The notes below the pieces were generated by a model, which saw only the letters and a program-made list of their open reading frames with translations, had not been told where the DNA came from and searched no databases. A program made the position numbers and the translations under genes. 64,000 nucleotides of DNA from Halapricum desulfuricans. Its GTDB lineage: Archaea > Halobacteriota > Halobacteria > Halobacteriales > Haloarculaceae. Positions 39,175 through 59,315 of this stretch are shown one piece after another. Each line of letters begins with the position of its first letter. Position 1 is the stretch's first letter. The DNA lies in assembly GCF_017094525.1 (NCBI RefSeq), contig NZ_CP064788.1, forward strand, positions 1,287,030-1,351,029, given 5' to 3'.

Positions 39175-41339
39175 TCTTGCGTGATCGTGACGAAATTCAG
39201 GACGAACTCCTGGGGGAGAACACCGCCGTGGTAGAAGCGAGCGTCCGGGAGCCCCTGATTTCGGAACCGCTGGATCGGGTCAGCGAGCGCACTGATCTTC
39301 GTCTCCCCATCGAGATAGCCGAGGTGAGCGTTCTCGTCGAGAAGCACACCGGGCGCGTCTTCGTCGATATCTTCCCCTGCCACCCATCGCCGCGTCACCT
39401 GCTCAGCCTCCGAAGGTGGATAGATGTCGTCGATATCGACGCTTCGCGGGAGCGAGACGAACCCGTGGTCAGCCAGGATGTACGCTCGGTCCCACTCCCC
39501 CTGATCGAGCTTCTCGCAGATGATCCGGGAGATCTTCTCGATGCGGTTTTGGAACAGGCCTTCGAAGTCGGTGAGTTCCCCCTCACCGGTCTTGTCGAGG
39601 TCGTTCCAGTAGTATGCGACGCGGGTCTCGCCCCATCCCGTCTCTTCGCTCTCGCTTTGCATGATGTAGCTCCACCCGTCGTCTTTCAGCAGTTGCTCCC
39701 GTCGGTAATTGGTGATTGTGTGTCCGTTGCGTCGGGGGACCAGCTCGCCGTCGTCAAGCTCGACGTTGAAACTGAACTTGCTGCCCGGGGTGAGTGCTGC
39801 CTTTCCGAAGTCGGTGTCGGAGGGGAACGCCCCGACCCAGGTATTCTCGTCAACTTCGAGACTCGGGAGGTCGCGGCGAATGGAGTCGGCCAGTTCGTGG
39901 GCGAGATCGAACCGTAGCGCATCGACGATGAACAGCACGACGCTCTGCCCACTCTGGAGGTGTTCCTTCTCTTCAGCGAAGAACTGGTGGGCGTGGTTCT
40001 GATCGACGAACGGTGAGCCGTCTTCGATCTGATCGACGACGAGATCGCCCAGGTCGCTGAGATACTCGAGATACCGCGACTCCACGAGCGACGTGCGCAT
40101 GTCAGCAAGCGTCGCCGTCGCGGGGTGTTCCTCCGGCAGGCCGGTCTCCGGCTCCCCCGAAACGACGAGGTTGAACACCGCGTTGTCAATCTGCCAGGTT
40201 CCGTTCTCGACGTCACCGTAGAGGGCAACGACGTCGTCGGTGTCGCCCCGCTGTTCCCAGGTATCGAGTTCGTTCGCCAGGTTGGCCACCTCGAGGGCCT
40301 GTTTCCAGACGTGGGTCCAGGCGACGTCACCGTAGGTCTGTTCGAGGCGCTGGTGGCGTCGGGTGGCGCGACTCGCGCAGGTCTCGTAGTCGCCAGCCCT
40401 GAAGGACTGCGTCCAGTCGTCCCAGAGTTCGTGTTCCAGGGACGCATCGACCGGGCAGTCGGCGAGTTCCCACGGGTCGTCGTGCGTGCGCAGGACATCG
40501 TGCCAGAAGCGAGCGTCCGGATCGAGATAGATCTGCGCCAGCTCCCGGGGGCGTTCGGCCTTACTCAGCACGGACTGGAGATTGGGCCTGGAGATGCCGA
40601 GGTCGGAACTCGATTCAGGCTGGTATGCTGGATCGAGACGTGACTTCTCGAGACCTTCGTCGACGAGCCACTCCGCGACTGCCCAGCGACGCGTCCGTTC
40701 GACGAGCGTGTGCTCGTCGGTGACGCCCTCGACGGCTGCAACCCCTTCGTCCACGAGGAGATCGCGGATCTCGGCGAGTTTGTCGCTCTCGTCGGTTTCG
40801 TCGAGGAGGTTCCCGACACCGTATTCCAGGACGAACGCAACGGGATCGTCGTGGCCGCCGAGAACGATCTGCGTCTGGAGGCTCCGGAGGGTTGGCAAAC
40901 CGCCCTCGCCGTTGAGAGCCTCGAAGAGGATGTCGGCGACCTGTTCACGTTCGCCTCCCTCGGTGTCGCCGTAGGCTGTCCGGATCGAGGCGGCCTGGAG
41001 GCGGTCGTTCTCGAAACAGCGGGCCGCGAGTTTGCCGATGTGTGCCTCGACGACACCGCCGGTGTTCTCGACGTCGCGGAACCAATCGACGTCGTCGGTC
41101 CGGGCCTGGGGGACGTACCAGACTGTCGTCTCGCGTGGGGCCTCACCACGGAGTTCGAGCGGGGACCGTTCGGCAGCCTGGAAATCATAGCCGAGGTCGC
41201 GGCTGACAGGTTCGACGATTTCCCGGAGGTCGCCGCCGTCGTCCCACCAGAGGACGATCGGGTCGTCGTCGGGTGCCTCTTCGATGGCATTCTCGATGGC
41301 GTCGCGGGCCGCCTGGTGAAGAGTCTTTGTCGCGGGCAT
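39171..41339 (-). CDS. pglZ: BREX alkaline-phosphatase-fold protein PglZ
   Basis: A 722-residue PglZ. The C-terminal phosphatase-superfamily core shows the metal-binding VVLFIVDALRFD (about residue 470), AYILADHGFV (about 623) and a late FYHGGVLPQEF. The N-terminal ~430 residues are the variable BREX part. PglZ is required for BREX methylation and restriction with PglX; its enzymatic role is not fully settled. It begins 2 bases after the pglX stop and ends overlapping brxHII. Confidence 0.9.
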   Translation of the reverse strand: MPATKTLHQAARDAIENAIEEAPDDDPIVLWWDDGGDLREIVEPVSRDLGYDFQAAERSPLELRGEAPRETTVWYVPQARTDDVDWFRDVENTGGVVEAHIGKLAARCFENDRLQAASIRTAYGDTEGGEREQVADILFEALNGEGGLPTLRSLQTQIVLGGHDDPVAFVLEYGVGNLLDETDESDKLAEIRDLLVDEGVAAVEGVTDEHTLVERTRRWAVAEWLVDEGLEKSRLDPAYQPESSSDLGISRPNLQSVLSKAERPRELAQIYLDPDARFWHDVLRTHDDPWELADCPVDASLEHELWDDWTQSFRAGDYETCASRATRRHQRLEQTYGDVAWTHVWKQALEVANLANELDTWEQRGDTDDVVALYGDVENGTWQIDNAVFNLVVSGEPETGLPEEHPATATLADMRTSLVESRYLEYLSDLGDLVVDQIEDGSPFVDQNHAHQFFAEEKEHLQSGQSVVLFIVDALRFDLAHELADSIRRDLPSLEVDENTWVGAFPSDTDFGKAALTPGSKFSFNVELDDGELVPRRNGHTITNYRREQLLKDDGWSYIMQSESEETGWGETRVAYYWNDLDKTGEGELTDFEGLFQNRIEKISRIICEKLDQGEWDRAYILADHGFVSLPRSVDIDDIYPPSEAEQVTRRWVAGEDIDEDAPGVLLDENAHLGYLDGETKISALADPIQRFRNQGLPDARFYHGGVLPQEFVLNFVTITQE

Positions 41340-42706: not shown

Positions 42707-42711
42707 AACCT

Positions 42712-44087
42712 CAGTCGATCACATCGACAGCCGCATAATCCCGTTCAGTAAGCGCTGAATCTGTTTGGTCTGTGCTTGGACTGTCTCGAAGTAGGACGAA
42801 CGGTGAGTCTCGGTGATGAGGAGTCGCTGTCGGCGGCGGACCGCCGCCGACGCGACAGTGTCGCCACTCACGATCGCTGTCCAGACCAGTGGACAGCTAC
42901 CGGAAGAACCGGTCGTCGAGTGACTGGTTCGCTGGAACAGCCCTGCGCACACCGAGCGCTGTCCAAGCGGCCCGCAGCACCATCTCACAGAACTCCGTGA
43001 ACGGCCAGTTCCAGAGGCGGCGCCCCCCGCGGCGGGGCGCCGCCACGTACTTCCAGTGGAGATACCGCCAGCTGTTCTGGAGCAGCAGACTCACGACAAA
43101 CATCACCAGCCGTAGTCCAGCGTCCTGAGAACTGGTGAACGCGAGGCTCTGTCTGGCTAAGCGGTAGCTGGACTCGATGCCGAAGCGCTTGCTGTAGTGT
43201 TCTCGCGCATCCCGTGGCGTGTCGATAAACGGCGCGTCAGCGGCGTAGCCGTGACGCGCCACCCCGTGTTCGTCGTATCGTCCCTGTTGGTAGACGCAGT
43301 CGATGAACACGGGGAAGGTCACTTCGCCGGCGAGATTGTGTTCGATCTCGCGGCTCCAGCCTGTGCTGAGCTCATGTTGAATCGTCTCGCCCCACTCGAC
43401 GATCGGCATCACGTAGGCGTAGTTGTGCGCGTACAGCAGTCCGAGACAGGTGCTGTTGTAGAAACCGCGATCGAGGTAGACGGCCTTGACGCCGAGGTCA
43501 AGGCCGTCGAGGAGTTCGAGAAACTCAGTGAGGACATCGCTGGTGGTGTCGCCAGCGACAAGCTGGCGCACCGCCAGCGTGTACCGCTTGTTACGTACCC
43601 GCGCGTAGAGCGTCGCATACGCGTGAAACGTCGTTGTTCCCCGTTTCGCCTCCGAGAAGTACAGCGCTTCTGTCTCGTCTTCGTCACCGTAGTAGGGATC
43701 GAGGTGGAGGTCGGCGACGACCTCCACCGGTCGATCCGGCAGTGTCTCAAGCGCATCTCGTTGCAAGAGCGTGTCTCCAACCGCCTCAACAATATCAAGG
43801 TCGAACTGGTCTGTGAGATGTCCCCGAACGGTGTTAGCGTGCGGTGAGTCAGCGGTCGATTCACAGACGTGATTGATCGAGGTCCCGCCGGCGCTGGCGC
43901 CGGCGAGGACCTCGTATAGTTTCTCCGTGGTGACTTCGACGTTCTCGCCGAGATCTATTGCCAGTTCCTCATCAAGACTGTTGACGACAAAATTAAGCAG
44001 GTGCTCTTCCTCTATCTCGCTGTCTGCTTCGGTAGGCTTCACACCATACCCAAGCAGACACTTCCTCTAATCCGATGTGATCGACTG
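42712..44087 (-). mobile_element. ISH3-family insertion sequence inside pglX
   Basis: A 1,376-bp element. Terminal inverted repeats: CAGTCGATCACATCG at 42712-42726, and its reverse complement at 44073-44087. The 5-bp target duplication AACCT is present at 42707-42711 and 44088-44092. Size, repeat length and duplication fit the ISH3 family. The element carries one intact transposase, and its last bases supply the new stop codon (44067-44069) for the pglX 5' part. Confidence 0.93.
42897..44042 (-). CDS. ISH3-family DDE transposase
   Basis: A 381-residue transposase starting at GTG 44042 (MKPTEADSEIEEEHLL). Candidate catalytic acids are in VVADLHLDPYYG (Asp), VYLDRGFY (Asp) and RFGIESSYRLARQ (Glu), in the spacing of ISH3/IS4-like enzymes. 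Length is typical (about 380-390). No stop or frameshift is visible, so the element may still be mobile. Confidence 0.9.
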   Translation of the reverse strand: MKPTEADSEIEEEHLLNFVVNSLDEELAIDLGENVEVTTEKLYEVLAGASAGGTSINHVCESTADSPHANTVRGHLTDQFDLDIVEAVGDTLLQRDALETLPDRPVEVVADLHLDPYYGDEDETEALYFSEAKRGTTTFHAYATLYARVRNKRYTLAVRQLVAGDTTSDVLTEFLELLDGLDLGVKAVYLDRGFYNSTCLGLLYAHNYAYVMPIVEWGETIQHELSTGWSREIEHNLAGEVTFPVFIDCVYQQGRYDEHGVARHGYAADAPFIDTPRDAREHYSKRFGIESSYRLARQSLAFTSSQDAGLRLVMFVVSLLLQNSWRYLHWKYVAAPRRGGRRLWNWPFTEFCEMVLRAAWTALGVRRAVPANQSLDDRFFR

Positions 44088-46925
44088 AACCTCTCGATCT
44101 ATCTCTTCTGCAAGCTTTTCGATTTCTTTTCGCTGAGTGAGATCGGATTTCTGCGCTTTTCGTGCGAGTTCTAGAAGAGAACTTTCGGCATCTCCAGTAT
44201 TAAATAGCTCTTCAGGAGTTTCGGTGATTGATTCTATATGATCATGGTTAGAGTGGAAAAAGCCAGAAGCGGCGGAATTTGGGAGTAATTCCGGCCCAAT
44301 ATAAAATGGACTCCTGAAGTCATGGACGCGTTGTTCGATAAAAAGTGTATGCTGCTCCCGTGATTTTTTCCTGATAGATTCACTATCTTCAAGCTCCCTA
44401 AACCAGGGAAGCATACCGATATAACCAGACTCCCACTTCCGTCCCGGTGTCAAGGAGAGTGCCAGGCTGTGGAATAAATCTGAATTTAATGCCCCAAGTA
44501 GGACCCATGCAGAGACCCCTTCTTCAGGGAATAGCATATTGCTTGCATGCCCGAAATAACCTCCACTTGGATAGTAGCCAAATCGACGTCCAGTCCTTTT
44601 GATATATGCCCAAGTAAGTCCCTCCCTCGTCTGATAATCCATATTACGGAGGACAGCACTTGAAGAACGGGCGACTTGTGCACCATTTTCACTCCAATTA
44701 ATTACCTCATCCACTTGTGGACGTATCCAAACATCTCCACCTGCGTTGGTGAACGGCTTAAATTGCTTATCAGCAATCTCCCACTGCTTGCGGATAAACC
44801 GATCATTATTTCCTGTTTGTAAACCGACCTTTACATCTCCAATGCCTTCCCCTTCTATCCCAGGAACTGTTGGATCAATTTTTAGATTTGTATCGTGTAA
44901 CTTTCGAATTTCTGGTGGGAGTGAATAGCATATAGAAGAACCTGGGACAGAATGAAATTCGGACATTTCAACCTCAAAATATCGTTGTATATCGTCGTCA
45001 GACACCCCGAAGGCTGATTGAAGATATTTTGTCTCTTTATTCGATTTTTCTACATCGTGCAAGCGAATAAATGTGCCAATTTCTTGTTGTTTTGAGCTTT
45101 TACGGACTACTGTTCCTACGGTGGCAACAGTCGCATTATCTAGGATTCCATATCCGAATTCAGAAAGGAAGTCAAATGATCCTCTCTTTCCGATAAAATC
45201 GGCTCGGAATGGTTCAAATGTTTGACTAAAGAGGAACGAACGTGGGACCAGCATACCAACACGCCCTGCATCCTTTGTAAGATAATCACCAACTTCAAAG
45301 AAGTTAATATAATATTGGGGACTATACTTATAATTAGACTTAACGTATTCCCGTACTTCTTCTGGCATCCTCCCCCGCGACCCGTACGGCGGATTCATCA
45401 ACGCCACATCATAGTCTTGCGTCAAAACCACCAGCAGGTGCAGGAAACTCCGGAGGTTCTGCTCGCCAAATGAGTCCGACGTCTGCTCTTCGACGGCCCG
45501 TTGCAGGGCCTTCAAAAAGGAATGCAACGACTGATGGGCAGCCTCGTGATAGTCGGTGAGTTCAGATTGCGTTTTACTCGAATCGAACGCCTCCTCGAGG
45601 GTTCCCTGCACGTCGAGGAGACTCCCCAGGGCCTCGGTCGTCTGGAACGTCTCGATGATCTCATCGAGGGCGTCCCGAAGGTCGGTTCCCTCGCCAGTGA
45701 TGTCGTCGAGCACCGCCTTCGCCTCCTCGATCTCTGCGACGCGGTTGTCCGCAGTGACGATCCCGACGTTGGGCATCTGGAAGTCGTCTGCGCCCTCCGC
45801 TTCGGCACGACCGCGGGCCTTCAGATAGAGGTTGAACGCCGCGAGTTGGGCTGCCCGGAGGTCGATGTCCACCCCGTAGAGGTTGTTCTCGAGGATCTTC
45901 GCCGGGACGTCCTCCCGGGGAACGTCGGGGCGTTCGGTCCACCAGATACGCTCGAGGATGTCGAACGCGTACAGTAGGAAGTGCCCGCTGCCACACGCCG
46001 GGTCGATGATCCGGAGCTCGGACGGATCGTCGAACTCGGGGGCCGCCTGGTCCTCGTCGTCGGGGATGAGGTACGTGGCGATGCTGGGGACGTCCGGGGC
46101 GGCCTCGGGCGTCGTGGCTCGTTCCTTGCGCTCGTCGATAGAGAGCGCCTCGGGTTCCGGAACGGTGTCTTCCTTGCCCGTGGCTTCAAGATAGAGCTTC
46201 CCCAGGGAGTTGTCGGTGAGCATCCGGACGACCCAGTGGGGCGTATAGAACTGGTTCGCCGGGCCGACGTCTCCCGGCTCGAGCGTGTTCTTGGCATCAA
46301 GGGCCTCAACGACGGGCCGGTTGTAGTATTCATAGACCCACCCGAGCACGTCGTCAGCCCGCCAGACTTCATCGGGAACCTCATCCAGCATTCCAGCCAG
46401 GTCTTCGTAAGTATCGACGTCCGGATCGACGAGACTGTACGGCGTGTCGGTATCGAACAAGATCTCGATGTCCTTTCCCAGTTCCTCGCACTTGTTCTGG
46501 TAAGCCGTCAGAATCGCCTCGTCCTCCAGCAGAAATTCCTCGTGGACGAGCGTCTCGGCAGCAGGCGTCAGGCCGTTCTCTTTGAAGACGGTGGCCTCCT
46601 CGTCGATGAAGTCCCGGACTTCCATCGTCCGGAGCGCAGCGAGTCGATTGACGATCGTGTAGCCGACGCCCGTGACGTACTCCGCGAACGCTTCGTCCCA
46701 GGTGTGGCCATCGACCGCTTCGAGTTGAATGGCCTCGACGAGTTCCTGGATGTCCTCGTCCAGTGCTTCAGGCTCGTCCGGTTCCTCGTCGAGCCCCTTC
46801 TGGGTGAGCTGGAACTCGACGTTCTGCTCGACGCGCTCGCGCATGTCCGCGACGACATCCTCGAGGTGTTCGCGCTCTGCTTTGTCCAGTTGCGCCTTCC
46901 GTTGGGAGAGAGAATCGCTTGCCAT
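44067..46925 (-). CDS. pglX: pglX, 5' part: BREX adenine-specific DNA methylase, truncated by an IS
   Basis: 952 codons as it stands, of which the last six (QSITSD) come from the ISH3 end; native sequence ends at position 44088. SAM motif I is DPACGSGHFLLYAFDIL (about residue 306) and the catalytic motif is LMNPPYGSRGRM (about 508), so the methylase core is complete. From about residue 520 the DNA becomes AT-rich and the protein enters the target-recognition part. Without the IS the gene would encode 1,400 residues. BREX PglX methylates a non-palindromic adenine site to mark self DNA. A methylase lacking its C-terminal third is probably inactive, which is inference. A TATA-like site (about 46960) precedes ATG 46925. 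Confidence 0.88.
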   Translation of the reverse strand: MASDSLSQRKAQLDKAEREHLEDVVADMRERVEQNVEFQLTQKGLDEEPDEPEALDEDIQELVEAIQLEAVDGHTWDEAFAEYVTGVGYTIVNRLAALRTMEVRDFIDEEATVFKENGLTPAAETLVHEEFLLEDEAILTAYQNKCEELGKDIEILFDTDTPYSLVDPDVDTYEDLAGMLDEVPDEVWRADDVLGWVYEYYNRPVVEALDAKNTLEPGDVGPANQFYTPHWVVRMLTDNSLGKLYLEATGKEDTVPEPEALSIDERKERATTPEAAPDVPSIATYLIPDDEDQAAPEFDDPSELRIIDPACGSGHFLLYAFDILERIWWTERPDVPREDVPAKILENNLYGVDIDLRAAQLAAFNLYLKARGRAEAEGADDFQMPNVGIVTADNRVAEIEEAKAVLDDITGEGTDLRDALDEIIETFQTTEALGSLLDVQGTLEEAFDSSKTQSELTDYHEAAHQSLHSFLKALQRAVEEQTSDSFGEQNLRSFLHLLVVLTQDYDVALMNPPYGSRGRMPEEVREYVKSNYKYSPQYYINFFEVGDYLTKDAGRVGMLVPRSFLFSQTFEPFRADFIGKRGSFDFLSEFGYGILDNATVATVGTVVRKSSKQQEIGTFIRLHDVEKSNKETKYLQSAFGVSDDDIQRYFEVEMSEFHSVPGSSICYSLPPEIRKLHDTNLKIDPTVPGIEGEGIGDVKVGLQTGNNDRFIRKQWEIADKQFKPFTNAGGDVWIRPQVDEVINWSENGAQVARSSSAVLRNMDYQTREGLTWAYIKRTGRRFGYYPSGGYFGHASNMLFPEEGVSAWVLLGALNSDLFHSLALSLTPGRKWESGYIGMLPWFRELEDSESIRKKSREQHTLFIEQRVHDFRSPFYIGPELLPNSAASGFFHSNHDHIESITETPEELFNTGDAESSLLELARKAQKSDLTQRKEIEKLAEEIDREVQSITSD

Positions 46926-47226
46926 AGGAGGTCCGTATGCCCTATCCGAATCAGACGAGACCCTTATAGGTTGGCGAAGATATCGGCCTGGCGATCGCGC
47001 TAGTTATACTGGATCTCACCCACCAGCAGATCGGGATCAACCCAAGAGTTTGTATGTCTAATATGATGGATTGTAGATCGATTAAAATCGACGTGCGAGA
47101 TAGAGAGGGTGGTCACTCACTCAGTAGACCTTTGTTGTAGAACCCTCCTCTGTAGCATTAAATATCGAGCGGACGAATGAGGATGAAGTTATTTGTGAGG
47201 GGGGAATCTAGGACGAGATAGGAGAC
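46926..47226. other. Divergent intergenic region between pglX and the HTH/dGTPase pair
   Basis: 301 bp, AT-rich in the right half. It holds a probable pglX promoter on the minus strand (CCTATAAGG near 46960) and the promoter of the small HTH gene on the plus strand. A purine-rich AGGAGAC precedes ATG 47227. I see no gene. Confidence 0.45.
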
Positions 47227-47445
47227 ATGGAAAGCTCTAATCTTGATCCGCAAGTCCAACGTAAGGTTCTCCAGATATTGTCGTCGAAAGGGCCAATGAG
47301 CCATGAACAATTGGCTCAGGAACTGGGGTACGACTGGGACGAAATGCAAAAGGTCATTCGTGAAATGCGGAACCAAGATCTTGTTACGATAACTATTGAT
47401 CGCCGATACGAAGCTGAGTCTGCTCCTTCTTCAGCGCCTGCGTAA
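47227..47445 (+). CDS. Small winged-HTH protein
   Basis: A 72-residue protein. A helix-turn-helix is visible: VQRKVLQILSSKGPMSHEQLAQELGYDWDEM followed by a recognition helix and wing (IREMRNQDLVTITIDRRY). It is too small for a sensor domain. It lies 12 bases before the dGTPase gene in the same direction and probably controls it. The region is AT-rich against the genome background, pointing to acquisition. Confidence 0.7.
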   Translation: MESSNLDPQVQRKVLQILSSKGPMSHEQLAQELGYDWDEMQKVIREMRNQDLVTITIDRRYEAESAPSSAPA

Positions 47446-47457
47446 TTCTCGCATCAC

Positions 47458-48801
47458 ATGTCCCAGAATCCGCCTCGAACAAAGAGGGTGGAGAAGTCTC
47501 CGAAACGAGACCAGAGGGAGCCCTTTCAACGTGACCGTGACCGAATTTTGTATACGCAAGCATTTCGACGACTGTCTGGTATAACGCAAGTGGCTCGAGC
47601 TGAAGAGTCCTATACGTACCATGATAGACTGAGTCATTCGTTGAAAGTCGCCCAAATCGGACGACGGATAGCAGAATATCTCCCCGATAAATCAGCGTCC
47701 GAGATCCGACATGGTCTCGAGGTTGACGAAGATGTCACAGAAACGGCTGCACTGGCACACGATATAGGTCACCCTCCATTCGGCCACATTGCAGAGAAAG
47801 AACTTGATCGACAGGTACGGGACAGGGGGGTTGAGGAAGGTTTTGAGGGGAACGCCCAGTCCTTTCGCATTGTCACCAATATCGCGCCGCATAACGACTG
47901 CGATCGAGGACTAAATCTCACTCTGGCCTCCCTGAATGCGATATTAAAATATCCCTGGATGCGTGGCGACGAAGGCATGGGTGAGAACCGATGGGGGCAA
48001 AACGAACATGAAAAATGGGGTGTCTATGAAAGCGAACGTCCCGAATTTGAAGAGGCACGTGCCTTGGAACCCGTGGATAAACGGCAAAGCGCTGAAGCAG
48101 CCATCATGGACTGGGCTGATGACTTAGCCTACGCAGTACATGATATGGAGGACTTCTATCGGTCCGGAATCCTACCATTAGAACAGCTCCTTTCTGAAGG
48201 TACTCCAGAACGACAGAATTTCCTAACAGATGTAGAGGATGAATTAGGAATTCCAGTGCCAGAAGGGGAAGATATTCTTGATTGGCTACGTAATCAAGGC
48301 GGTCGTACTCTCCTCTCACCATTCAAAGGAACGAGAGAGGAAAGACGTACCCTCGATTATGTCTCCTCCACACTCATCCAGAGGTACATTGGGAAAGAAA
48401 AAGGTGGGGTATATCTTCAAGATCATGATCCCAGTGAGCCATACCTCCAAATAGATGATGAACTCATGAATGAAGTCTCTCTATTAAAACATATGACTGT
48501 ATATTATGTTATTGAAGATACGGCTCTGAGAGCACAACAACGGGGGCAGCGAGAGGTTATTAGAAACCTTTTTGATATCCTCTTTAATGCAGTCGATCCT
48601 ACAGATGGGGAAGACACGGATATCGTTCCAAACCCCTTCCGTGAGGTTGCTAAAGATCTATCCCCGTCAGCCAGTAACAAGCGAATTTGTCGAATCGTAA
48701 CTGATACCATCACAAATATGACTGAAAAGCAGGCCATACAACTACATGGGCGTTTGACTGGTAGGTCACCGGGGTCTCTTCAAGAGCGCATCCTGTATTA
48801 G
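47458..48801 (+). CDS. dgt: Deoxyguanosinetriphosphate triphosphohydrolase (dGTPase)
   Basis: A 447-residue HD-domain enzyme. Metal-binding and family motifs: YTYHDRLSHSLKVAQIGRRI, ALAHDIGHPPFGHIAE (HD pair, about residue 100) and EGNAQSFRIVTNI. These define the Dgt/SAMHD1-like dNTP triphosphohydrolases, which split dNTPs into nucleoside and triphosphate. Bacterial dGTPases are a known anti-phage defence that starves viruses of dNTPs. It lies inside the BREX cluster on the opposite strand, behind a small HTH gene, and is more AT-rich than the BREX genes on either side. All catalytic residues I can identify are present. Confidence 0.9.
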   Translation: MSQNPPRTKRVEKSPKRDQREPFQRDRDRILYTQAFRRLSGITQVARAEESYTYHDRLSHSLKVAQIGRRIAEYLPDKSASEIRHGLEVDEDVTETAALAHDIGHPPFGHIAEKELDRQVRDRGVEEGFEGNAQSFRIVTNIAPHNDCDRGLNLTLASLNAILKYPWMRGDEGMGENRWGQNEHEKWGVYESERPEFEEARALEPVDKRQSAEAAIMDWADDLAYAVHDMEDFYRSGILPLEQLLSEGTPERQNFLTDVEDELGIPVPEGEDILDWLRNQGGRTLLSPFKGTREERRTLDYVSSTLIQRYIGKEKGGVYLQDHDPSEPYLQIDDELMNEVSLLKHMTVYYVIEDTALRAQQRGQREVIRNLFDILFNAVDPTDGEDTDIVPNPFREVAKDLSPSASNKRICRIVTDTITNMTEKQAIQLHGRLTGRSPGSLQERILY

Positions 48802-48917
48802 TTTCTTAGTTCTGTGGAAGTCACGTGTTCAGACATCGTGTAGTGTGACCCCATCAGCTGTCGCTACGTTGCTCGGAGCGAATCCTCCTCACCTTGCTTG
48901 AGAAGCGTCGTTGCCGG

Positions 48918-49088
48918 TCACACTCCGTGCATTTGTAGTTTGACGTCTTTGGTCGTCTCTTTGAGGTCCCGAAGCGACATCGCCCCGCCACCGACGAGAT
49001 ACGCCTTGACGCTCGTTTCGAGTTGCTCCGCGATCGTCTGGAGTTCGGTCTCGATGTAGTGCCGACCGAATCTGGAACGCTCACTCAT
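48918..49088 (-). pseudogene. Truncated nucleotidyltransferase (DUF6036-like) remnant
   Basis: A 56-codon frame from ATG 49088, overlapping the regulator's stop (ATGA). It reads SRFGRHYIETELQTIAEQ, then the nucleotidyltransferase-like YLVGGGAMSLRDLKETTKDV, and stops six codons later. In full proteins of this type the second aspartate motif reads KDVDL; here it is KDVKL followed by a stop, so the active site and most of the fold are missing. The regulator/nucleotidyltransferase pairing looks like an AbiE-type toxin-antitoxin module, now broken. Confidence 0.6.
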
Positions 49089-50035
49089 AGGGTGATGTCA
49101 TACTCTGCGGCTGTCCGCTTGAACTCTTCCCATTCGGGGAGCTGATCAGTGGTCACCTCGCCGTCCGTCTCCAGATACTCGAGGAGTTCATCGACGACAG
49201 CACGCACGTCGAGTGCCGCTTCGGGCTGATAGTGAGCAGCGCGGTCCTGCAACGCCGAGGGCTCGACAGCCTGTTTTTCCATCAACAGCAGACAGTAGGT
49301 TCGGTATCGAGGTCCATCATCGACCAGCAAGGTGTGACAGATCAGATCTGCTGGCGTGACGTCGGCAAGCCGATCCGAACGGATGTACTGCCGTTGTTCT
49401 CGGGTGAGAAGCGGGACGTCGAACGCTTCGAAGCGCGCTGGGCCAGTCAGATGGAATCCATCGGCCTCGATGTCACCATCGCACGTGAAGAGGTACTCGT
49501 CGTGTGTTTCCCAGTGAATGCTGATCTTCCCGGTATGGCGCTGGGCTTCACGACGATGTCGGTGGTGATACAACCCGCGGGCTATCGACGACAGTGTCCG
49601 AAATGGGTCGTTGAGTTGGTACTGGGATGTGGATTTGCCGACGATACCAACCTGCTGGAGATCATCCAACCGGCGATACACCGTCGCCCGACTAACCGTA
49701 CTGTGTTCGGCGATCTCAGTCGCTGTCCGACTGTGGTCGAGATAGTAGAGGATTTGGAGTCCGGAGCCAGCGATCAGCTGGGGAAAGTCCACGTGACTAT
49801 ACTCTGTGAGGAGCGCTTCGAGTTCTTCGACCGGTTCAATATCAGTCGGGACGACGACCTTTCGTCGTCCCTGCGTTTCAGTTCGGACGCACCCCCATGC
49901 TTTCAGCTCGGAAATAACGCGCGACGTATGCCCGGGGCTCCAATCGAGCGAGTCAGCAAGCGACGTAACCGACAGTTCCGAGTCGGCTGTCCCTAAGAGA
50001 TATGAGAGAAGTTGAAGCTGACTCTTCGACATCAT
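49085..50035 (-). CDS. Two-HTH transcriptional regulator in the BREX locus
   Basis: A 316-residue protein with two winged helices. HTH 1 is residues 1-65 (LADSLDWSPGHTSRVISELKAWG), HTH 2 is residues 90-150 (IAEHSTVSRATVYRRLDDLQQVGIV). A ~165-residue C-terminal domain follows without a recognised motif. It lies on the same strand 160 bp downstream of brxC copy 2, has its own TATA and palindromic operator, and overlaps the nucleotidyltransferase remnant. It could be the antitoxin/repressor half of an AbiE-like pair, or a BREX regulator analogous to BrxR. It is not a BREX core gene. Confidence 0.75.
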   Translation of the reverse strand: MMSKSQLQLLSYLLGTADSELSVTSLADSLDWSPGHTSRVISELKAWGCVRTETQGRRKVVVPTDIEPVEELEALLTEYSHVDFPQLIAGSGLQILYYLDHSRTATEIAEHSTVSRATVYRRLDDLQQVGIVGKSTSQYQLNDPFRTLSSIARGLYHHRHRREAQRHTGKISIHWETHDEYLFTCDGDIEADGFHLTGPARFEAFDVPLLTREQRQYIRSDRLADVTPADLICHTLLVDDGPRYRTYCLLLMEKQAVEPSALQDRAAHYQPEAALDVRAVVDELLEYLETDGEVTTDQLPEWEEFKRTAAEYDITL

Positions 50036-50038
50036 ATA

Positions 50039-50086
50039 GTCTCATTTCACGCAAAGGAATTATAAATAGCTTTCGTGATTTGAGAC
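50039..50086 (-). promoter_or_regulatory. Palindromic operator flanking the regulator's TATA box
   Basis: GTCTCATTTCACG (50039-50051) is inverted as CGTGATTTGAGAC (50074-50086); only the central ATT/ATT triplets break the symmetry. A TATA element (minus-strand CTATTTATAATTC) sits between. The regulator starts at 50035, so transcripts would be leaderless or nearly so. The arrangement suggests autorepression by a dimer. Confidence 0.55.
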
Positions 50087-50195
50087 AGCCAGTCGGATAT
50101 CTTACTGGTGGCATTATAGAACGAAGTGATTTCTATCATTCCTGGGGTGGAAGGATCTGAGGATGATCTCGCGCAGGGGAAACAGGATTACTGTG

Positions 50196-53100
50196 CTATT
50201 CTTCCTCGATCAGGACAACGCTCCCCGACTCCAACGTATCGAGACGCTCTTGCACATCTCGAATCCGATCCAGTACAGTTTTCGACTCCGACAGGAGTTC
50301 GTTCACGCGCTCTTCGCTCGGCCGCTCGTCGGAATCGACGACATCGGTGACTTCGTCGGTCACATCTGTGTTCGGTAATTCGTGTCGTAGTTCTTCGGCA
50401 ACAGACTGGAGTTCCGCCCAGGCATCGTCATCTGCATCCGGCGGTTTCGGATCTTCAGCCTGCTCGATGAGTTGTCGCACCCGCTGTTTCGTTGGCGGTC
50501 GAGAAGACGACAGTGCGGTCTCGACGGTTTCCGTTGTCGGTGAGTCCGGATGCTCGTCTCGAAGCTGCCTTCCAGCTTCCTGCAACTGCGACCAGAGACT
50601 GTCACCGTCAGTAGCGGCGAACAGTTCTCGGGCGCGCTCGTAGGCCGCTGCCTGTTGATCGACCGTCGTGTCAATCAATGTCGCTTCCGTCACCTGTTCT
50701 TCTTCCCACGCCATCTCGAACACCGCTTCGAGATCATCGAAGACGAGTTCATCGAACTCCCCCGTCGCCACGTCGAGAATGCTCCGAACCGACGCTTCGT
50801 TCGACCGAAGCCAGTCCGTGAGAGCATCACAGACCTCACTCGGGGCAGAAGCGGAGATTGCCTCGCCAGTAATGCGACGGTATTGCGTCGAGAGTTCGTC
50901 CACGCGGTGGGTTTCGGCGTCTTGGATTCGAGACTCAACGGTCGCAACGCTGGGGACAGTGCCACTCTCGGCCGTTGTTTCCATACGGGCGGTGATCGAG
51001 GCGCTCGGGTACAGTGCCTCCATCGTCCCCAGTTCGTCGGCAAACTGCTCCCACAGCGTTGCCCCCTCGTCCACGATGCCGAAGAGTTTCCGGGCATTTG
51101 CGAACGTTTCAGCCTCTTCAAGCGTCTTCTCGAGATCACCGTCAGTATCGAGATCAGCTGTAGAGAGATCCTCACCAGCAAGGGCGGGATCGATCGTCTC
51201 TTCGAACGCATCGAGTGTCACGTCGAACTCCCGGGAGACGCCCTTCAGAGTTCGCTTCACCGTCGCACTGTTCTGGGAGACCCACGCACCGAGTTCTGCC
51301 AACCATTCGTCTGGCCCATCCCCGGCTGGCTCCTCGTCGAGAACGGCAGTGACGATATCCTTCACCGTCTGTTGGTCGAATATCTCGACGTCGAACCGAA
51401 CCTGTAACGACGTCAGCCCTCCTTTCGTGCGAACCTGTCGGCCGATCGCAGCCGGATCAGTCACGTATTCGGTGTCCCGTTTGAGGGCGACTGGTTTGTT
51501 CGACGTAGCGAGTGTGATGAGTAGGGCTGCAATCGACTTGCGGGGCGTTCCGCGGTAATCGCCGTTCGCCGTCCGCGTTTGCTGGAGTACCGTCTCGACG
51601 TCTACTGCCTTCTGCGATTCGTATTTCTCGATGAAATCGTGACACCAGCCCGTGTCAGCTATCTCTCTGTTATTCGTGTCAACGCCGAGCAGTGCGGCAT
51701 CTGCATCCGAAAGGGGCCACTCGCCACTGCCGCGGAAGAACTGGGCCATCGCCTTCGCGTCGTCTACCTCCACGAGCGGCTGTGTCAACGTCTTTCGGGA
51801 CGCACCGAAGACCGACTCGATCTGATCTTCGACGACTTGTTCCAGAACGCTGGAACGTGCACCACGCTGGCCGTGGACGGTATAGACGGTTGCGTCATCG
51901 AGGATCGTAGCGATGGACGACTCGATTTCACGCCGATCGGCCCGATGTTCGCGCTCGAGTTCCTCGTGAGATTCGGTCTCCGTGTCGAGCACTTTCTCCA
52001 TCCCGATGAAATTCCGTATCCGATCGACCAGCGTCTCCGGCACGTCGATCGTAATCAGAATGTGCTCACCGGCGTCGTGGTGGTCGTTCGCGTCTTGCCA
52101 GATCTCGACTTGCTCGGTCACCGTCTCGGAATCCTCAGCGAGGACGCGAACATTCAGGGAGTCGTATTCGTGCATAGACGTCCGGCCGACGGGCTCGAGA
52201 ATGGAGTACGCGTATCGGAGCGGAACGAGACGCTGGTCCCCGATATCGACCTCGTGACGGGTCCCGTCGCTGTGGAAGAAGTCGTCGTTCTCCCGTAATC
52301 GCGTTTCCAGCCATGCTGACAGCTGATGGGGCGAGATCTCGCCAGCTTTGTCCTGAGCGCGGCTGAGAATGCTCTCTTGCTCTTCGGAGACGATCGTGTA
52401 GACCTCGTCTCCCTGATCAGTCGTTTCGGTGAGGACCTTCTGCTTCTTCACGAGCGTCTCCAGACCGGATTGCGTTTCTTCGACGACGTCATCGAGAGAC
52501 GTCGATACGTCGTCGATCATTAACCGGGCGAGGTTTTCCGGAGTCGATGGGACGCCACCAGCCTGGTTCAGCAGATAGAGCGCTTTCGAGAGACGTACCT
52601 CCCAGACGTCTTCGCCACCGTCAAACGTCGGAATCAGCGTATTGTCGATCATCTCCTGAACCCACAACGGCACGTAGGTCGTCTCTTCGACTAGGAGATC
52701 GAACAGGACGTCCCACGGGACGATCCGACCGGCTTCCTTCGACGACCAGCTGAACTTGGTGAACAGCGACCGGACCAGCACGAGCAGTGCCCGGCCCTGA
52801 ATGTAGTCTCTATCGGTGGTCCGACCCTGGGTGATGAGCGTCTGCATCACCGATCGGAGCAGTGTGAGATCGTATTCCCGGAACGGGTATGACTCGACGG
52901 GATCAGGATCGGCACTGGCGACCGAAGCGTACGTCTCAAGTGAGAGATCCGGCATCGACTGCAAGAGCGACGTGACAGTGTCCTCGCCGTCAGGCGTCGA
53001 TTTCTGGAGCCAACGCTTTCGAACGATGATTTCCGTGTCCGCGCCTTCGAGGCGAACTTGCTGATGGGTCCAGTGATCCGCCGGTGGCTCACCGATGAGT

Positions 53101-54032
53101 TGCTGGCGCGTATCCGGAAGCGAGTACTGCCCCGTCGTGACGACGACCGGATTCGGTCCACGTTGCAGCGCCTCCATCGTTTCTTCGAACTCCCGGTATC
53201 TGTGACTGCTGTCACCGACGAACAGCGCGACCTCGTCGAGGCCGAGCAACAGTTCCGTTCGTGTACTGCCGTCGTTGAGTGCATTAGTCGCCGTCTCGAC
53301 ACGGGAAACGAGTTCGTCGGCGTCGAATGACTCCGGTTCGACATCGTCTTCTGCGGCCTCGATAGAGGCCTTCACTCCCTCTCGGGTGTCCAGTTCCGTC
53401 CCGGTCGTTTCGGCCATTGCCGGCAACGCCTCGTACAGCCAACTGCGGAGGGACGCACGCTCGTTGTGCACGTCTTCGAACGTCTTCCCCTGATGCTCGA
53501 ACTCTTGGAGCGCGTCCCAGACACCGTCGTACTCCATATCGAGCGTCCACGCCCATTCAAGCAACCAGTTCGGGTCGGTTCGATATCCCAATTCACGACC
53601 GATAGCCTCGAAGATCATGAACGGCAACGGCGGCTCTTTCGAGGCATCCCGGTCGAGCAAATTGAGGAAAACCGGCTTCAAACGATCGACGTGAGAGTCC
53701 CTGATGGCGCGTTGGAGTTCGTCGAAGCCCGGCCACTGGTCGGCGAGTTGATCCCCGAGATATGCGAATTCCGAGTCGTCGTCGGCGAGGAAGCCGACGA
53801 GTTTCAGAAGGTGTGTCTTCCCCGATCCAAACGTTGCATGCATGTAGAGGAAGCGTTCGGCTTCGCTCGGATGGGTTTCGACGACGTCGCCGAGCTCCTC
53901 AAGAACCCGTTTCGCACTGTCGGTTTCATAGAACTCTCTGACGTCAGTCTCGGCTCGTTCACGGGCGTTGACCTTCTGTACCTCTTCGAGTGGTCGCGTC
54001 GGATCGCTATGAAAGAGATCACTGATTGTCAT
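50196..54032 (-). CDS. brxC: BREX large ATPase BrxC/PglY, copy 2
   Basis: A 1,278-residue P-loop protein. Walker A is HATFGSGKTHLLKL (about residue 70) and Walker B is LLLGLDEVALFVGD (about 265). A long helical C-terminal region follows, rich in Gln/Glu and with repeated helices between residues 1000 and 1200. The start overlaps the brxB stop (ATGA). It is clearly paralogous in layout to the other large ATPase of this cluster, but the two are very different in sequence. Two BrxC/PglY ATPases in one locus is a property of the haloarchaeal type 5 arrangement, as I recall it. Confidence 0.85.
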   Translation of the reverse strand: MTISDLFHSDPTRPLEEVQKVNARERAETDVREFYETDSAKRVLEELGDVVETHPSEAERFLYMHATFGSGKTHLLKLVGFLADDDSEFAYLGDQLADQWPGFDELQRAIRDSHVDRLKPVFLNLLDRDASKEPPLPFMIFEAIGRELGYRTDPNWLLEWAWTLDMEYDGVWDALQEFEHQGKTFEDVHNERASLRSWLYEALPAMAETTGTELDTREGVKASIEAAEDDVEPESFDADELVSRVETATNALNDGSTRTELLLGLDEVALFVGDSSHRYREFEETMEALQRGPNPVVVTTGQYSLPDTRQQLIGEPPADHWTHQQVRLEGADTEIIVRKRWLQKSTPDGEDTVTSLLQSMPDLSLETYASVASADPDPVESYPFREYDLTLLRSVMQTLITQGRTTDRDYIQGRALLVLVRSLFTKFSWSSKEAGRIVPWDVLFDLLVEETTYVPLWVQEMIDNTLIPTFDGGEDVWEVRLSKALYLLNQAGGVPSTPENLARLMIDDVSTSLDDVVEETQSGLETLVKKQKVLTETTDQGDEVYTIVSEEQESILSRAQDKAGEISPHQLSAWLETRLRENDDFFHSDGTRHEVDIGDQRLVPLRYAYSILEPVGRTSMHEYDSLNVRVLAEDSETVTEQVEIWQDANDHHDAGEHILITIDVPETLVDRIRNFIGMEKVLDTETESHEELEREHRADRREIESSIATILDDATVYTVHGQRGARSSVLEQVVEDQIESVFGASRKTLTQPLVEVDDAKAMAQFFRGSGEWPLSDADAALLGVDTNNREIADTGWCHDFIEKYESQKAVDVETVLQQTRTANGDYRGTPRKSIAALLITLATSNKPVALKRDTEYVTDPAAIGRQVRTKGGLTSLQVRFDVEIFDQQTVKDIVTAVLDEEPAGDGPDEWLAELGAWVSQNSATVKRTLKGVSREFDVTLDAFEETIDPALAGEDLSTADLDTDGDLEKTLEEAETFANARKLFGIVDEGATLWEQFADELGTMEALYPSASITARMETTAESGTVPSVATVESRIQDAETHRVDELSTQYRRITGEAISASAPSEVCDALTDWLRSNEASVRSILDVATGEFDELVFDDLEAVFEMAWEEEQVTEATLIDTTVDQQAAAYERARELFAATDGDSLWSQLQEAGRQLRDEHPDSPTTETVETALSSSRPPTKQRVRQLIEQAEDPKPPDADDDAWAELQSVAEELRHELPNTDVTDEVTDVVDSDERPSEERVNELLSESKTVLDRIRDVQERLDTLESGSVVLIEEE

Positions 54033-54655
54033 CGTTGGAGATGCACCTCCCGGATCGGACTATTGATCTGATGGGCTGGGTAGTAGTGTCGTGACGGGCC
54101 GCCGAAGAAGCTCAATTTCCCGCCGACAACGTCACCCGGGAAGGGAATACCGATGGTGGACTTGACGTTTCGCCGGTCGAGTTCGTCGAGGAGTTCTGAC
54201 GCACGACTGAAGGGGTACAGGCTTCCGAGGTTAAGCAGGAGCAGTACGTGACTCTGTGTCTTCACCTTCTCTTCGGCGACCGCCTCTTCGAGTATTTGTT
54301 GGACGAGTTCCGCGGCAAGGCGGTCTTGCATCGTCTCCTCGATGCGTTCTCCGGCGGAGACCTCATCCTCGAACTCGGAAAGCGGTTCACCGAGATCGAC
54401 GAGAAGTTTGTACACGTCAGTCTTGGGGAGCAATTCGTCGAGCCAGATCGGTTGGACGGTCACGCCGTCGGGAATCGCTGGTGCTTCGGCCGGAGTGGTT
54501 GCCCAGGCTTCCAGACGCTTTGCTGTCCGGTGTTCGACTGCGGGATCGACAGCGGCAATGACGAACGGGTTCCGAATCCCACGCTGACCACGGGCGAAGG
54601 TACACAGCTTCTCCTTGAACGAGCGATACGGTGACGCACTCGTCGTTTCGCTCAT
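54029..54655 (-). CDS. brxB: BREX protein BrxB
   Basis: A 208-residue DUF1788-family protein. The N-terminus SFKEKLCTFARGQRGIRNPFVIAAV, the middle LLLLNLGSLYPFSRASELLDEL and the C-terminal FPGDVVGGKLSFFGG and HYYPAHQI match the BrxB pattern. Function is unsettled; BrxB is required in type 1 BREX. It overlaps the brxC genes on both sides as ATGA, so all three are translated as a unit. Confidence 0.85.
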   Translation of the reverse strand: MSETTSASPYRSFKEKLCTFARGQRGIRNPFVIAAVDPAVEHRTAKRLEAWATTPAEAPAIPDGVTVQPIWLDELLPKTDVYKLLVDLGEPLSEFEDEVSAGERIEETMQDRLAAELVQQILEEAVAEEKVKTQSHVLLLLNLGSLYPFSRASELLDELDRRNVKSTIGIPFPGDVVGGKLSFFGGPSRHYYPAHQINSPIREVHLQR

Positions 54656-57600
54656 CGAATGATCACCCCCTCATCGACGTCACTGATATCGAGTTCACCG
54701 TCTTCTACGAGACGTTGGAGACGTTGGTTCAGTTTCTGACGGTCGTCGGGAACGATCCCGATCCGATCGACATCTGACGGCCCACGAGTCTCGACTATCG
54801 AAGAAAGGGTGTCGAGTCGGGTCGCTAACTCCTGGGGATCCGGTTCGACGGCCATTTCGAGCGATTCCAGATCCGAGATCGTATCAGCAGCGTCGATGAA
54901 CCCTTCTGCGCCGCCATCACCACCGAGCGTCGTGATCGCGGAATCGATCGACTGGTACCACTGCTTGCACTGGCGCATCGGTGTGATATACGTTTCTTCG
55001 AAGGCTCTATGGACGCCAGCCGGGAGATCGGTCGCCGGTACAATCCACAGATGGTCGTCGATCCGCTCGATCAGATCGGTCAGTTGCTTCTCGTCCGTGA
55101 ACGACGCCCACGCCCGTTCGAGTTCGGGAAGCGGATCTGGAACGAATTGCTCGGAGAACGTACTCCAACCATCCGTCGTCCACCAGTCACCATCATAGGT
55201 CACAATTGCACTCCTGCGTTCTTCGAGCGCTTGTTGTGCCTGCTCGTCGATCCAGTCAAATTCCCGCTCTCCGATCACCAGCAGCGCATCGAGACGGTGA
55301 AGGGTAGACAGTCGGCGATTCCATACGTCGGTTACCTCGGCAAGCCACTCATCCGTGGCGTTCGTCTGCTCGATCACGTCCTCGATCCCATCTCCTTGGG
55401 ACTTCACTGTCGTTAGGCGATCTTCCGTTGCCGCGATGCGATCGTCTAAATTCGTAGCGAACGCTTCCAGCAACTCTGTGACGACCGCCGTTTGCACGTC
55501 GGTATCGGCAACTAGAGTTACGTCTTCGCGGAGGCCACTGAGCTTCGCGTTAATTCGCTGATTGGCTTCCTGAAGGTGAATCAGTCCGTCAGCGACGGTT
55601 TCGGTCGTCTCCTTGAAACCGCCATCCTCCAGAAGTTTCCCGAGCGGTTTGCGTGGGAGGAGTTTGAGCATCGTCGTCGCTACATTGTCGAGATCGAGTA
55701 CGGCCTCATCTTCGAGGGTGTTCCCGTTTTCGTCGATCGGAAGTAGCCGTCCGTTTCGGCAGAACCCCCAGATGATCGCACAGAGAGCAGGCCGGGCGTC
55801 ATCGTAGAACGGTTTCTCTTCGACGACACCGTCGAGAACAGTGGTCATCTTGAGTCCACTCTCCCGATCCTTCAGCTGTCGCCCAACGAGAGCCATCACG
55901 TTTCGCTGGATCGTCTGCTGGCCTTCGCTCGTTTCGTCATTCGATGTAGGCACTTGAATTTTTTGCGCCCACGTCGGGAGCGGCTCCGTACTATCGAGCT
56001 CGCGTAATTCTTGGAGTCGCTCCTCGTTGACCTGGAGCATCATCGGGTGGAAATCGTCGGGGTACGAGATATCGACGGCCGTCTGAACTGCGCTCGACAG
56101 AGATTCGATATCAGATCGGTCCTTGACCGTGAACGAGCCGCGTCCCATTGCACTCTCCAGTTTGCTCCGGACAGCGTTCGCACGCTGTTCGAGATCCTGG
56201 TTGACTGCTGGCGGGGCATCGTGACTAGCGATCGCATCGCGGAGGGCCCACCACTCGATCAAACTGTTGCGCAAGTCCTCGATTCCGTCTGTGTCGATGT
56301 CCCAGTAGAGTGTCTCCTCGTCCATTCTCTCTTCAGTAGCATTCGGACGAAGTCCCTGGATCGTCACATCGACATCAAGTCCACCGTCCGTCTCGAGACT
56401 CGTTTCGAGACCGATATCGTCAACGCGGAAATGATACGAGACCGGGTATTCATCACCGGACTCACCATATGGCACAGACTCCGGGAGAGAGAGGTCTTGG
56501 GTGATCCGCTCCCAGAGGTGTTCATCGAGGGTCGAAAGAATGTCGTCCCAATCTGGGTTCGCTTCGTTTTGCTCTGTCTCCTCGTAGATGGTGCGTTCTT
56601 CTTGCGTTGCGAATCGATAGCGGGGACCGCTCTCTTCCTGAGCCGGTCGTATGAATTTCTCGAGTCGATCGAGGGATTCCTCGACACGGTTAGTCGTGCT
56701 GATCCAGGACTGCCCGTTGAGATCAGACATGACCGCGACGGCAAGGTTCCCTTCGTTTTGCGGAACGATATCCGGCACGTGTTTTAACAGCAACACTGCC
56801 TTTGCAACGCGGAGGTCGAACTCGCGCACGTCGCTATCACTATCGTTGACTGCATCGACGATACCCGTCGTTTCGTCTGTTCCCTCCAAGACGCGCATAT
56901 CCTGTGGAAGGATCTCCCGAAGCTCGGGCTTGATCAGCTCGAAGAAGTCTACGATCGAGATGAGGTGATCCGCTTCGGACTCATCCACCCATCGCTCGAG
57001 CAATCCATGCATCAGCGCGAGGATGGCCCGTGCCGTCCCAGAGAAAATCGATTTTGCAGGATCATTTGCCTCACGACGCAGATTGAACAGGATTTCCAGG
57101 AAGAGCGGCGCGTGATAGGGAAGGAACGGATAGTACTTGACGAGTTCTTCGTCATCGATCTCGTCAAGAGGGGGCTTGGTATTCCGTTTGATCTCATTGT
57201 AGACCAGCGACTCGGTCGGTTTTACATCGGCGTCGTCGAGGATTCGACGAACCGCGTCGGACCCCTGCTCTGACTTCTGGAAGAGTCGGCGTTTGGCGAT
57301 CTCACCGACGTGTTTGCTTGGGAGTTGGTATCGGTGAGGGAATCGATCCTTGACGATGCTGAAATCAGCGCCATGTGCCGCAAACTGTGGCTGAACGTCT
57401 TCGATTTTTGCCTGTGCGGTTGCGACTAACTGGATATCGCCGTCCCCGATTTCGTCGACGTTCTCTGCAAGCGTCTGAAGTTCGGTCAGTCGCTCGAAAT
57501 CCGTCCCGATGAAGAGACTCACTTCGTCAAGTAATAATACCAGCTTCACGGGTTCGCCGAGCGCTTCTTCGCGCTCCTGCCGAAGCGCTTCGAGTCTGCT

Positions 57601-59162: not shown

Positions 59163-59167
59163 CGTAA

Positions 59168-59174
59168 CCTCCTT
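59168..59174 (-). promoter_or_regulatory. Ribosome-binding site of the BREX operon's first gene
   Basis: AAGGAGG on the minus strand, five bases before ATG 59162. Strong Shine-Dalgarno sites are uncommon in haloarchaea, where most genes are leaderless, so this decides the brxA-like start and implies an mRNA with a leader. Confidence 0.7.
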
Positions 59175-59315
59175 AGAAGAGAACCGGTGGGAAAGAGAAG
59201 GAAGGTGGATCTGTCCGCCATCTGGGAGCGTGCTCATGCGATAGTGGAATCAACCTATCCACTTTACTATTTGTGGTGGAGAACGGGTCGTGTTCAGATT
59301 AGCTGATTCCGGGCC

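Follow-up and report, generated by a model that had tools for sequence, protein, structure and literature searches.

Why does a gene for a deoxyguanosine triphosphate triphosphohydrolase (dGTPase), preceded by a small gene for a winged helix-turn-helix (wHTH) protein, stand inside a bacteriophage exclusion (BREX) locus of the haloarchaeon Halapricum desulfuricans, and does it serve that locus? The stretch analysed, hereafter the window, comprises 64,000 nt (positions 1287030-1351029) of a 2.89-Mb haloarchaeal chromosome and carries on its minus strand a type 5 BREX (BREX-5) locus, whose BrxA, BrxC, BrxB, BrxC2, PglX, PglZ and BrxHII score as BREX-5. An earlier note on this DNA had described a complete dGTPase and a 72-residue helix-turn-helix (HTH) protein on the opposite strand between the second brxC copy (brxC2) and pglX, a description that the open reading frames (ORFs) and profile scores confirm, and had cast the two as a nested second layer of defence that fires if BREX fails. 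We infer that the pair is probably a single mobile, regulated defence module acting by depletion of deoxynucleoside triphosphates (dNTPs), in which the regulator may act on the operon, on the enzyme or on both.

The enzyme appears to be catalytically intact and is predicted to hydrolyse its substrate. Enzymes of its HD type split dGTP into deoxyguanosine and triphosphate. It passes the curated TIGR01353 cut-off of 152.35 with 265.4 bits, is the sole enzyme of the source genome to do so, and matches the PADLOC dGTPase model PDLC02374 at 310.9 bits over 9-444; its best NCBIfam score, 273.7 bits, is for PRK03007 (actinobacterial Dgt), under the 385 cut-off of that model. Residues H60, H101, D102, H110, E113 and D222, whose roles as HD metal ligands and catalytic H/E residues we assume from E. 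coli Dgt, are invariant in 20/20 homologues, and the top Foldseek matches of its AlphaFold2 model (pLDDT 86.4) are solved dGTPases, including SpdGTPase (9p8w) and CloA.

The small gene that precedes it across a 12-nt spacer encodes a protein that passes Pfam TFIIE_alpha (25.3 bits against a cut-off of 22.9) and is modelled by AlphaFold2 (pLDDT 83.8) as a standard winged helix of order H-H-H-E-E. Purifying selection acts on the gene in each of the four pairs compared, with pN of 0.28-0.43 and pS of 0.67-0.77 (0.43 and 0.75 for the window gene against that of locus L055).

A partner of this kind is a regular companion of the enzyme in haloarchaea. A dGTPase over the TIGR01353 cut-off is encoded by 16 of 391 Halobacteria genomes (17 matches, two in genome G305), and a small same-strand ORF of 64-97 codons directly precedes it in all 15 testable loci other than the window, in most at a spacing of 6-24 nt, so that, as in type II toxin-antitoxin loci, a small partner is conserved beside the effector. 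(L061, cut by a contig end, was excluded from this count, and L068 is a near-repeat of L065; the small ORF of L057 overlaps the called dGTPase start, the true start being probably later, and the dGTPase start of L067 was set at 9089.) When a hidden Markov model (HMM) of the upstream ORFs was built with one locus left out at a time, for 18 loci comprising the window, 14 haloarchaeal and three bacterial ones (the near-duplicate L068 being omitted), the upstream ORF was the top match in 18/18 loci, each with 118-317 six-frame ORFs. Its E value was at most 2.4e-5 in 16 of them and 0.24-0.26 in L069 and L070, and for the window protein, the best of 280 ORFs, it was 1.5e-15. The distance matrix of the small protein correlates with that of the enzyme (Mantel r 0.67, reached by 0 of 5000 permutations, n=15), and the pair is inherited and moves as a unit. 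Plasmid C2 of G305 carries the region twice (L065 and L068), the dGTPase of the second copy being split into two ORFs. Among 294 genomes of the archaeal phylum, five match at E 1e-30, including the window genome, all from one order and all within the 16 already counted.

The enzyme also has relatives outside the archaea, and in several bacterial phyla most of them are preceded by a putative small wHTH gene. Genome draws yielded matches to the window dGTPase in 8/151 genomes of Chloroflexi (the phylum of L069), 26/198 of the phylum of L070 (Acidimicrobiia), 1/150 of that of L072 (Gemmatimonadetes) and 9/146 of that of L071 (Nostoc). Viral contigs gave no match when searched with the window protein by itself, and 33 loci when searched with an alignment. 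A tree of 59 rows, in which the presence of the partner requires two changes, was thinned by ten unpaired rows and enlarged by 17 of 42 new loci to give a second tree, of 66 rows. In the latter every one of the 29 wHTH-paired enzymes falls into a single clade of 35 members (support 100/99), together with four unpaired enzymes and two that could not be judged, and three changes are required, against 21.4 in shuffles. Outside this clade lies the main actinobacterial Dgt group, which has no wHTH gene. With a stricter HMM made from the 15 haloarchaeal proteins only, and three loci with scant upstream DNA dropped, a well-placed ORF scoring above 2 bits was found in 12 of 18 clade members versus 1 of 59 others (Mann-Whitney p 2.7e-5), or in 13/18 versus 6/59 at 0 bits or more; L237 and L149, paired on the tree, were not recovered in this way. 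The wHTH-paired dGTPases form a distinct subfamily.

Five of the viral-contig loci (L197-L200 and L203) fall into the wHTH clade; a small ORF precedes the enzyme in 5/5, and phage genes lie near four of them (terminases in L198, integrases in L199 and L203, tail genes in L200). A halovirus origin of the pair was considered and set aside, none of these five loci being shown haloviral. That the pair recurs in haloarchaea, in several groups of bacteria and in viruses of bacteria points to a form of antiviral defence that has received little study. As a separate observation, four viral loci outside the wHTH clade (L202, L207, L221 and L223) have directly upstream of the dGTPase an unrelated-looking short ORF with the shared motif ..DPVYRTAVSELKTLR..GKWSL.., which may be a different small dGTPase partner.

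How the pair came to lie within BREX can be read from related loci. Stretches upstream of BREX-5-type pglX genes were taken from other haloarchaeal genomes (59, one further filler stretch having been dropped); in 46 of them brxC2 lies ahead of pglX in the same orientation, the brx genes point away in eight, and no brx gene was seen in five. Across the 46, the gap between brxC2 and pglX measures 23-7,765 bp and exceeds 1 kb in 34. Its ORFs were clustered and one representative of each of 20 clusters was scanned, 20/20 against Pfam and 10/20 against PADLOC, which revealed PDC-S11-like proteins in nine loci, Kiwa kwaA/kwaB-like proteins in seven, SMODS (CD-NTase) proteins in two and AAA_15 (OLD-like) ATPases in two, most other clusters having no match. 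TATA-binding protein (TBP) homologues, five ORFs of one cluster, also occur as cargo in the gaps of L115, L099, L101 and L132 (the L115 representative scores 120.5 bits on Pfam TBP). Since L099 (genome G318) has 93% DNA identity to the window at the start of pglX, yet very different cargo, genes have been exchanged in this gap beside a conserved pglX, and the gap is a cargo hotspot. It is thus a place in haloarchaeal BREX-5 in which to seek new archaeal defence genes. Nesting of this kind is known: according to the available text of PMC11341690, pglZ and pglX are linked in about 9,000 genomes, and about 7,000 of these have further genes lodged among the BREX components, BrxU and PARIS being among the commonest known nested systems.

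Within the window, DNA similarity to other BREX-5 loci ends at one border of an inserted segment and returns at the other (Table 1). Its higher AT content, to which the earlier note had pointed, is real: the GC fraction of 47006-48935 is 0.481, a value equally low in only 1.1% of 1.93-kb stretches across the 64 kb. The remaining BREX genes range from 0.54 to 0.63, except that the 3' half of the pglX fragment, at 0.444, is below even the insert. Between brxC2 and the insert, as a correction to the note, there also lie the remnant of a nucleotidyltransferase (NTase) gene and an HTH gene. The Pfam DUF6036 assignment of the remnant was made on its intact relative in L092, no trace of the remainder was found within 46800-50100, and the HTH-NTase pair occupies the brxC2-pglX gap of seven of the 46 BREX-5 loci (L080, L082, L083, L092, L095, L124 and L128). 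A segment of about 1.93 kb with the wHTH-dGTPase pair was thus dropped into the hotspot and replaced most of an older passenger. No terminal inverted repeats or target duplication were seen around the insert, which rules against a transposon-borne cassette. The pair does lie within the gap, and to say that it interrupts the BREX transcription unit overstates the case, since this gap usually carries cargo and some 80 bp upstream of pglX are kept. The HTH and NTase genes of the older passenger overlap by 4 nt, and we take the two to resemble an AbiE-like HTH-NTase toxin-antitoxin.

The surroundings of the pair elsewhere offer support, not proof, of a defence role. It is found on plasmids of Salinigranum rubrum, about 6 kb from a Piwi-domain gene, of Salinirubellus salinus, about 2.3 kb from a CBASS cyclase, and of Natribaculum breve (a record without annotation). 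When 125 ORFs lying up to 6 kb from the dGTPase in 15 loci were scanned with PADLOC at 1e-20, 71 families were matched, and ten of these ORFs were rescanned singly. Five of the 15 loci have a clear defence-type neighbour: a prokaryotic Argonaute in L055 and a CBASS cyclase in L065, both within 6 kb, and, from the single rescans, a IIG/DrmMI-like protein in L061, HmaB-like methyltransferases on both sides in L054 and a type II methyltransferase in L062, the other six rescanned ORFs giving none. Single matches to DpdJ, BrxHI and TGT near dGTPases were not traced to a locus. As a control, 15 other stretches were taken from 13 of the genomes that carry these loci, nine of the stretches sharing a contig with a dGTPase; 125 of their 160 ORFs were scanned and matched 20 families with one member each, helicases, AAA proteins and similar.

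If the pair is a defence module, its action might be as follows. In an uninfected cell the wHTH protein would hold dGTPase activity down by repressing its own short operon, by binding to the dGTPase, or both; viral infection would lift this block, and the freed enzyme would split dGTP into deoxyguanosine and triphosphate, starving viral DNA synthesis. The module would work independently of BREX, its position reflecting co-location of defence genes, not a dedicated back-up. Several observations weigh against this account. The enzyme scores 235.7 bits on the NCBIfam anti-phage dGTPase model NF041026, below the cut-off of 400; 10/15 loci have no attributable defence neighbour, and the contrast with the control, which comes mostly from large main contigs, may be due in part to replicon type. 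Four clade members, all cyanobacterial, lack the wHTH gene, and pairing in bacteria and viruses is judged by size, place and weak HMM scores, below 10 bits in all but one case. No conserved palindromic operator was found upstream of the wHTH gene across 15 loci, and the defence, the loss of dNTPs and the regulation are each deduced from sequence and models. The best perfect palindrome of the window, TCGATTAAAATCGA (47077-47090), was rejected as a shared operator, being matched by 66/200 shuffles and not common to the other loci.

These observations bear on how the wHTH protein would act. The lack of a shared palindrome speaks weakly against an autorepressor, and the ordinary wHTH fold weakly for one. 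It is possible, if on balance unlikely, that the protein is instead a direct switch, a small sensor of nucleic acid or nucleotides or an antitoxin that binds the dGTPase and holds it inactive until viral nucleic acid or a change in the dNTP pool appears, comparable to the restraint of CloA by the nucleotidyltransferase of the Clover system, though exerted by a protein. The small gene always comes first, at short spacing in most loci, and diverges together with its partner, no operator is conserved, and the nearest folds to its model include Z-alpha/Z-beta domains (Foldseek E 2e-3, TM 0.7-0.84); by analogy, restraint would be expected from the toxicity of unrestrained CloA, as given in the available text of PMC12265719. 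The fold matches, however, are no better than any small winged helix would give, with IclR and DtxR next and none below E 1e-3, so that a Z-alpha-like nucleic-acid-binding identity is a lead only, and wHTH genes upstream of the genes that they regulate are commonplace. More doubtful still is the broader proposal that the pair constitutes an undescribed two-gene antiviral system across archaea, several bacterial phyla and prophages, in which the winged helix is both direct sensor and off-switch.

The readings that deny the pair a defence role of its own fare less well. A housekeeping dGTPase for dNTP balance or stress, under an ordinary regulator, would belong to the same enzyme family as cellular Dgt, and dGTPases with cell-cycle roles do exist, according to the available text of PMC12186491; we consider it unlikely here, as the enzyme is absent from 375/391 Halobacteria at the threshold used, the pair occurs on plasmids and proviral contigs, and its clade is separate from that of most actinobacterial Dgt enzymes. 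The housekeeping homologue that the earlier note had named as a possible refutation is likewise not borne out, no dGTPase over the cut-off being present in the four other genomes of the source genus. Very little speaks for a layer kept for action when BREX is blocked. The pair does lie inside BREX, other defence genes are often nested there (as the accessible part of PMC11341690 states), and a dGTPase is mildly more frequent with BREX-5 than without it (6/60 against 10/331 genomes; Fisher p 0.023, uncorrected for kinship). Yet neither the dGTPase nor its wHTH partner was found in any of the 59 other BREX-5 stretches, 46 of them with a measurable gap (tblastn at 1e-5), so the back-up reading lacks specific support, and a search for an HD hydrolase of this kind at the same position, as the note had suggested, comes up empty. 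BREX-5 PglX scores over its cut-off in 60/391 Halobacteria genomes; the pair lies in the locus in one of these 60, occurs on different contigs or hundreds of kb away in the other five genomes that have both, and in the remaining 10 of its 16 genomes no BREX-5 PglX reaches the cut-off. Outside the window the pair stands at unrelated sites. What stands of the nested module is its separate orientation and a plausible antiviral role, with no special tie to BREX. Least probable of all is a chance neighbourhood or decaying, functionless passenger; the split second copy in G305 and the turnover of hotspot cargo would fit it. Against it stand the intact reading frames, catalytic residues that do not vary, purifying selection acting on the wHTH gene, and a pairing kept across two domains of life.

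Table 1. Features of the window (positions within the 64,000 nt)
Feature	Positions	Strand	Basis or remark
Small wHTH gene, first of pair, 72 aa, ATG start	47227-47445	+	Pfam TFIIE_alpha, HMM, AlphaFold2
dGTPase, HD-type dNTP triphosphohydrolase, 447 aa, ATG start	47458-48801	+	TIGR01353, PADLOC, fold, residues
Inserted segment, ~1.93 kb	47006-48935		blastn against BREX-5 loci: DNA similarity ends ~47005, returns ~48936-48946
DUF6036 NTase remnant, first ~51 codons, cut at insert	48918-49088	-	66% identity over 53 columns to 281-aa NTase of L092
HTH protein with HVO_2833_C domain, partner of truncated NTase	49085-50035	-	Pfam HVO_2833_C 105.5 bits
Candidate pglX promoter region, conserved DNA upstream of pglX, retained	46926-47005	-	similarity to L075, L084, L092, L101, L123 reaches into 46958-47005
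brxA	58398-59237	-	
brxC1	54652-58401	-	
brxB	54029-54655	-	
brxC2	50196-54032	-	PADLOC BrxC 1960 bits
pglX 5' part	44067-46925	-	NF033454 1540 bits over profile 1-950; ISH3-interrupted, gene resumes at 42710
pglZ	39171-41339	-	
brxHII	36259-39174	-	
ISH3-family insertion element inside pglX	42711-44088		perfect 16-bp inverted ends; ACC on both flanks
ISH3 transposase	42897-44042	-	NF033541 360.7 bits

The earlier note had called a second layer notable because pglX is broken. The gene is indeed broken, by an unrelated ISH3 element that meets it at 44088/44089; joined across the element, its flanks form an open reading frame to codon 1402, so pglX has no visible defect other than this insertion, which is independent of the dGTPase insert. 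With flanks otherwise in frame, the disruption is perhaps recent. Four BREX-5 loci (L079, L080, L082 and L083) have two pglX genes, one on each side of pglZ, whose identities to the window pglX differ.

In the literature searched, which covers little of the subscription literature, no description of a wHTH-dGTPase unit was found, and comparison with known systems indicates where such a unit would stand. Standalone anti-phage dGTPases, SpdGTPase of Shewanella putrefaciens CN-32 and relatives, were reportedly described by Tal et al. in 2022. The window enzyme resembles them in its HD-type chemistry and fold (TM 0.71 to SpdGTPase, 9p8w) and differs in falling below the NF041026 cut-off and in being preceded by a dedicated wHTH gene; the enzymes labelled by NCBI as anti-phage dGTPases (L176, L177 and L178) lie outside the clade of 35 and, by their annotated upstream genes, lack the partner. 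Actinobacterial Dgt (PRK03007), closest by profile score, is likewise set apart by the position of its main group on the tree and by the missing wHTH gene. Defence genes such as BrxU and PARIS, which the available texts of PMC11341690 and PMC12839542 place in BREX islands, share with the window pair the condition of a separate gene among BREX genes; here the host is a haloarchaeal type 5 BREX, the site is the brxC2-pglX gap, and the effector would act by nucleotide depletion, not by cleavage of DNA or tRNA. The second of these sources describes embedded backup nucleases, and its main text, so far as available, does not contain the word 'dGTPase' (PMC12839542).

The nearest parallel is Clover, in which, according to the available text, the dGTPase CloA, toxic when unrestrained, is joined to the nucleotidyltransferase CloB, which makes p3diT (PMC12265719). 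The same text, citing Tal et al. 2022, states that phages are restricted by depletion of dNTPs. Both are two-gene units of a dGTPase of similar fold (CloA, 9p8v) and a dedicated regulator gene, and they differ in that the window has a wHTH protein where Clover has an NTase that makes p3diT, with no adjacent CloB-type NTase in the same operon. The NTase remnant beside the dGTPase is truncated, DUF6036-like, on the other strand and member of another pair, with an HTH partner of its own in seven dGTPase-free loci, and a Clover system with a decayed CloB was accordingly rejected. How antiviral dNTPases are held in the off-state in healthy cells is a largely open question, answered, within the literature covered, for Clover only. 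If the wHTH protein does prove to be both sensor and off-switch, the pair would add a third mode of control for antiviral dNTPases, beside standalone enzymes and the p3diT of Clover, and its conserved, minimal partner of 72 aa makes the question of control tractable with two genes, in archaea and in bacteria.

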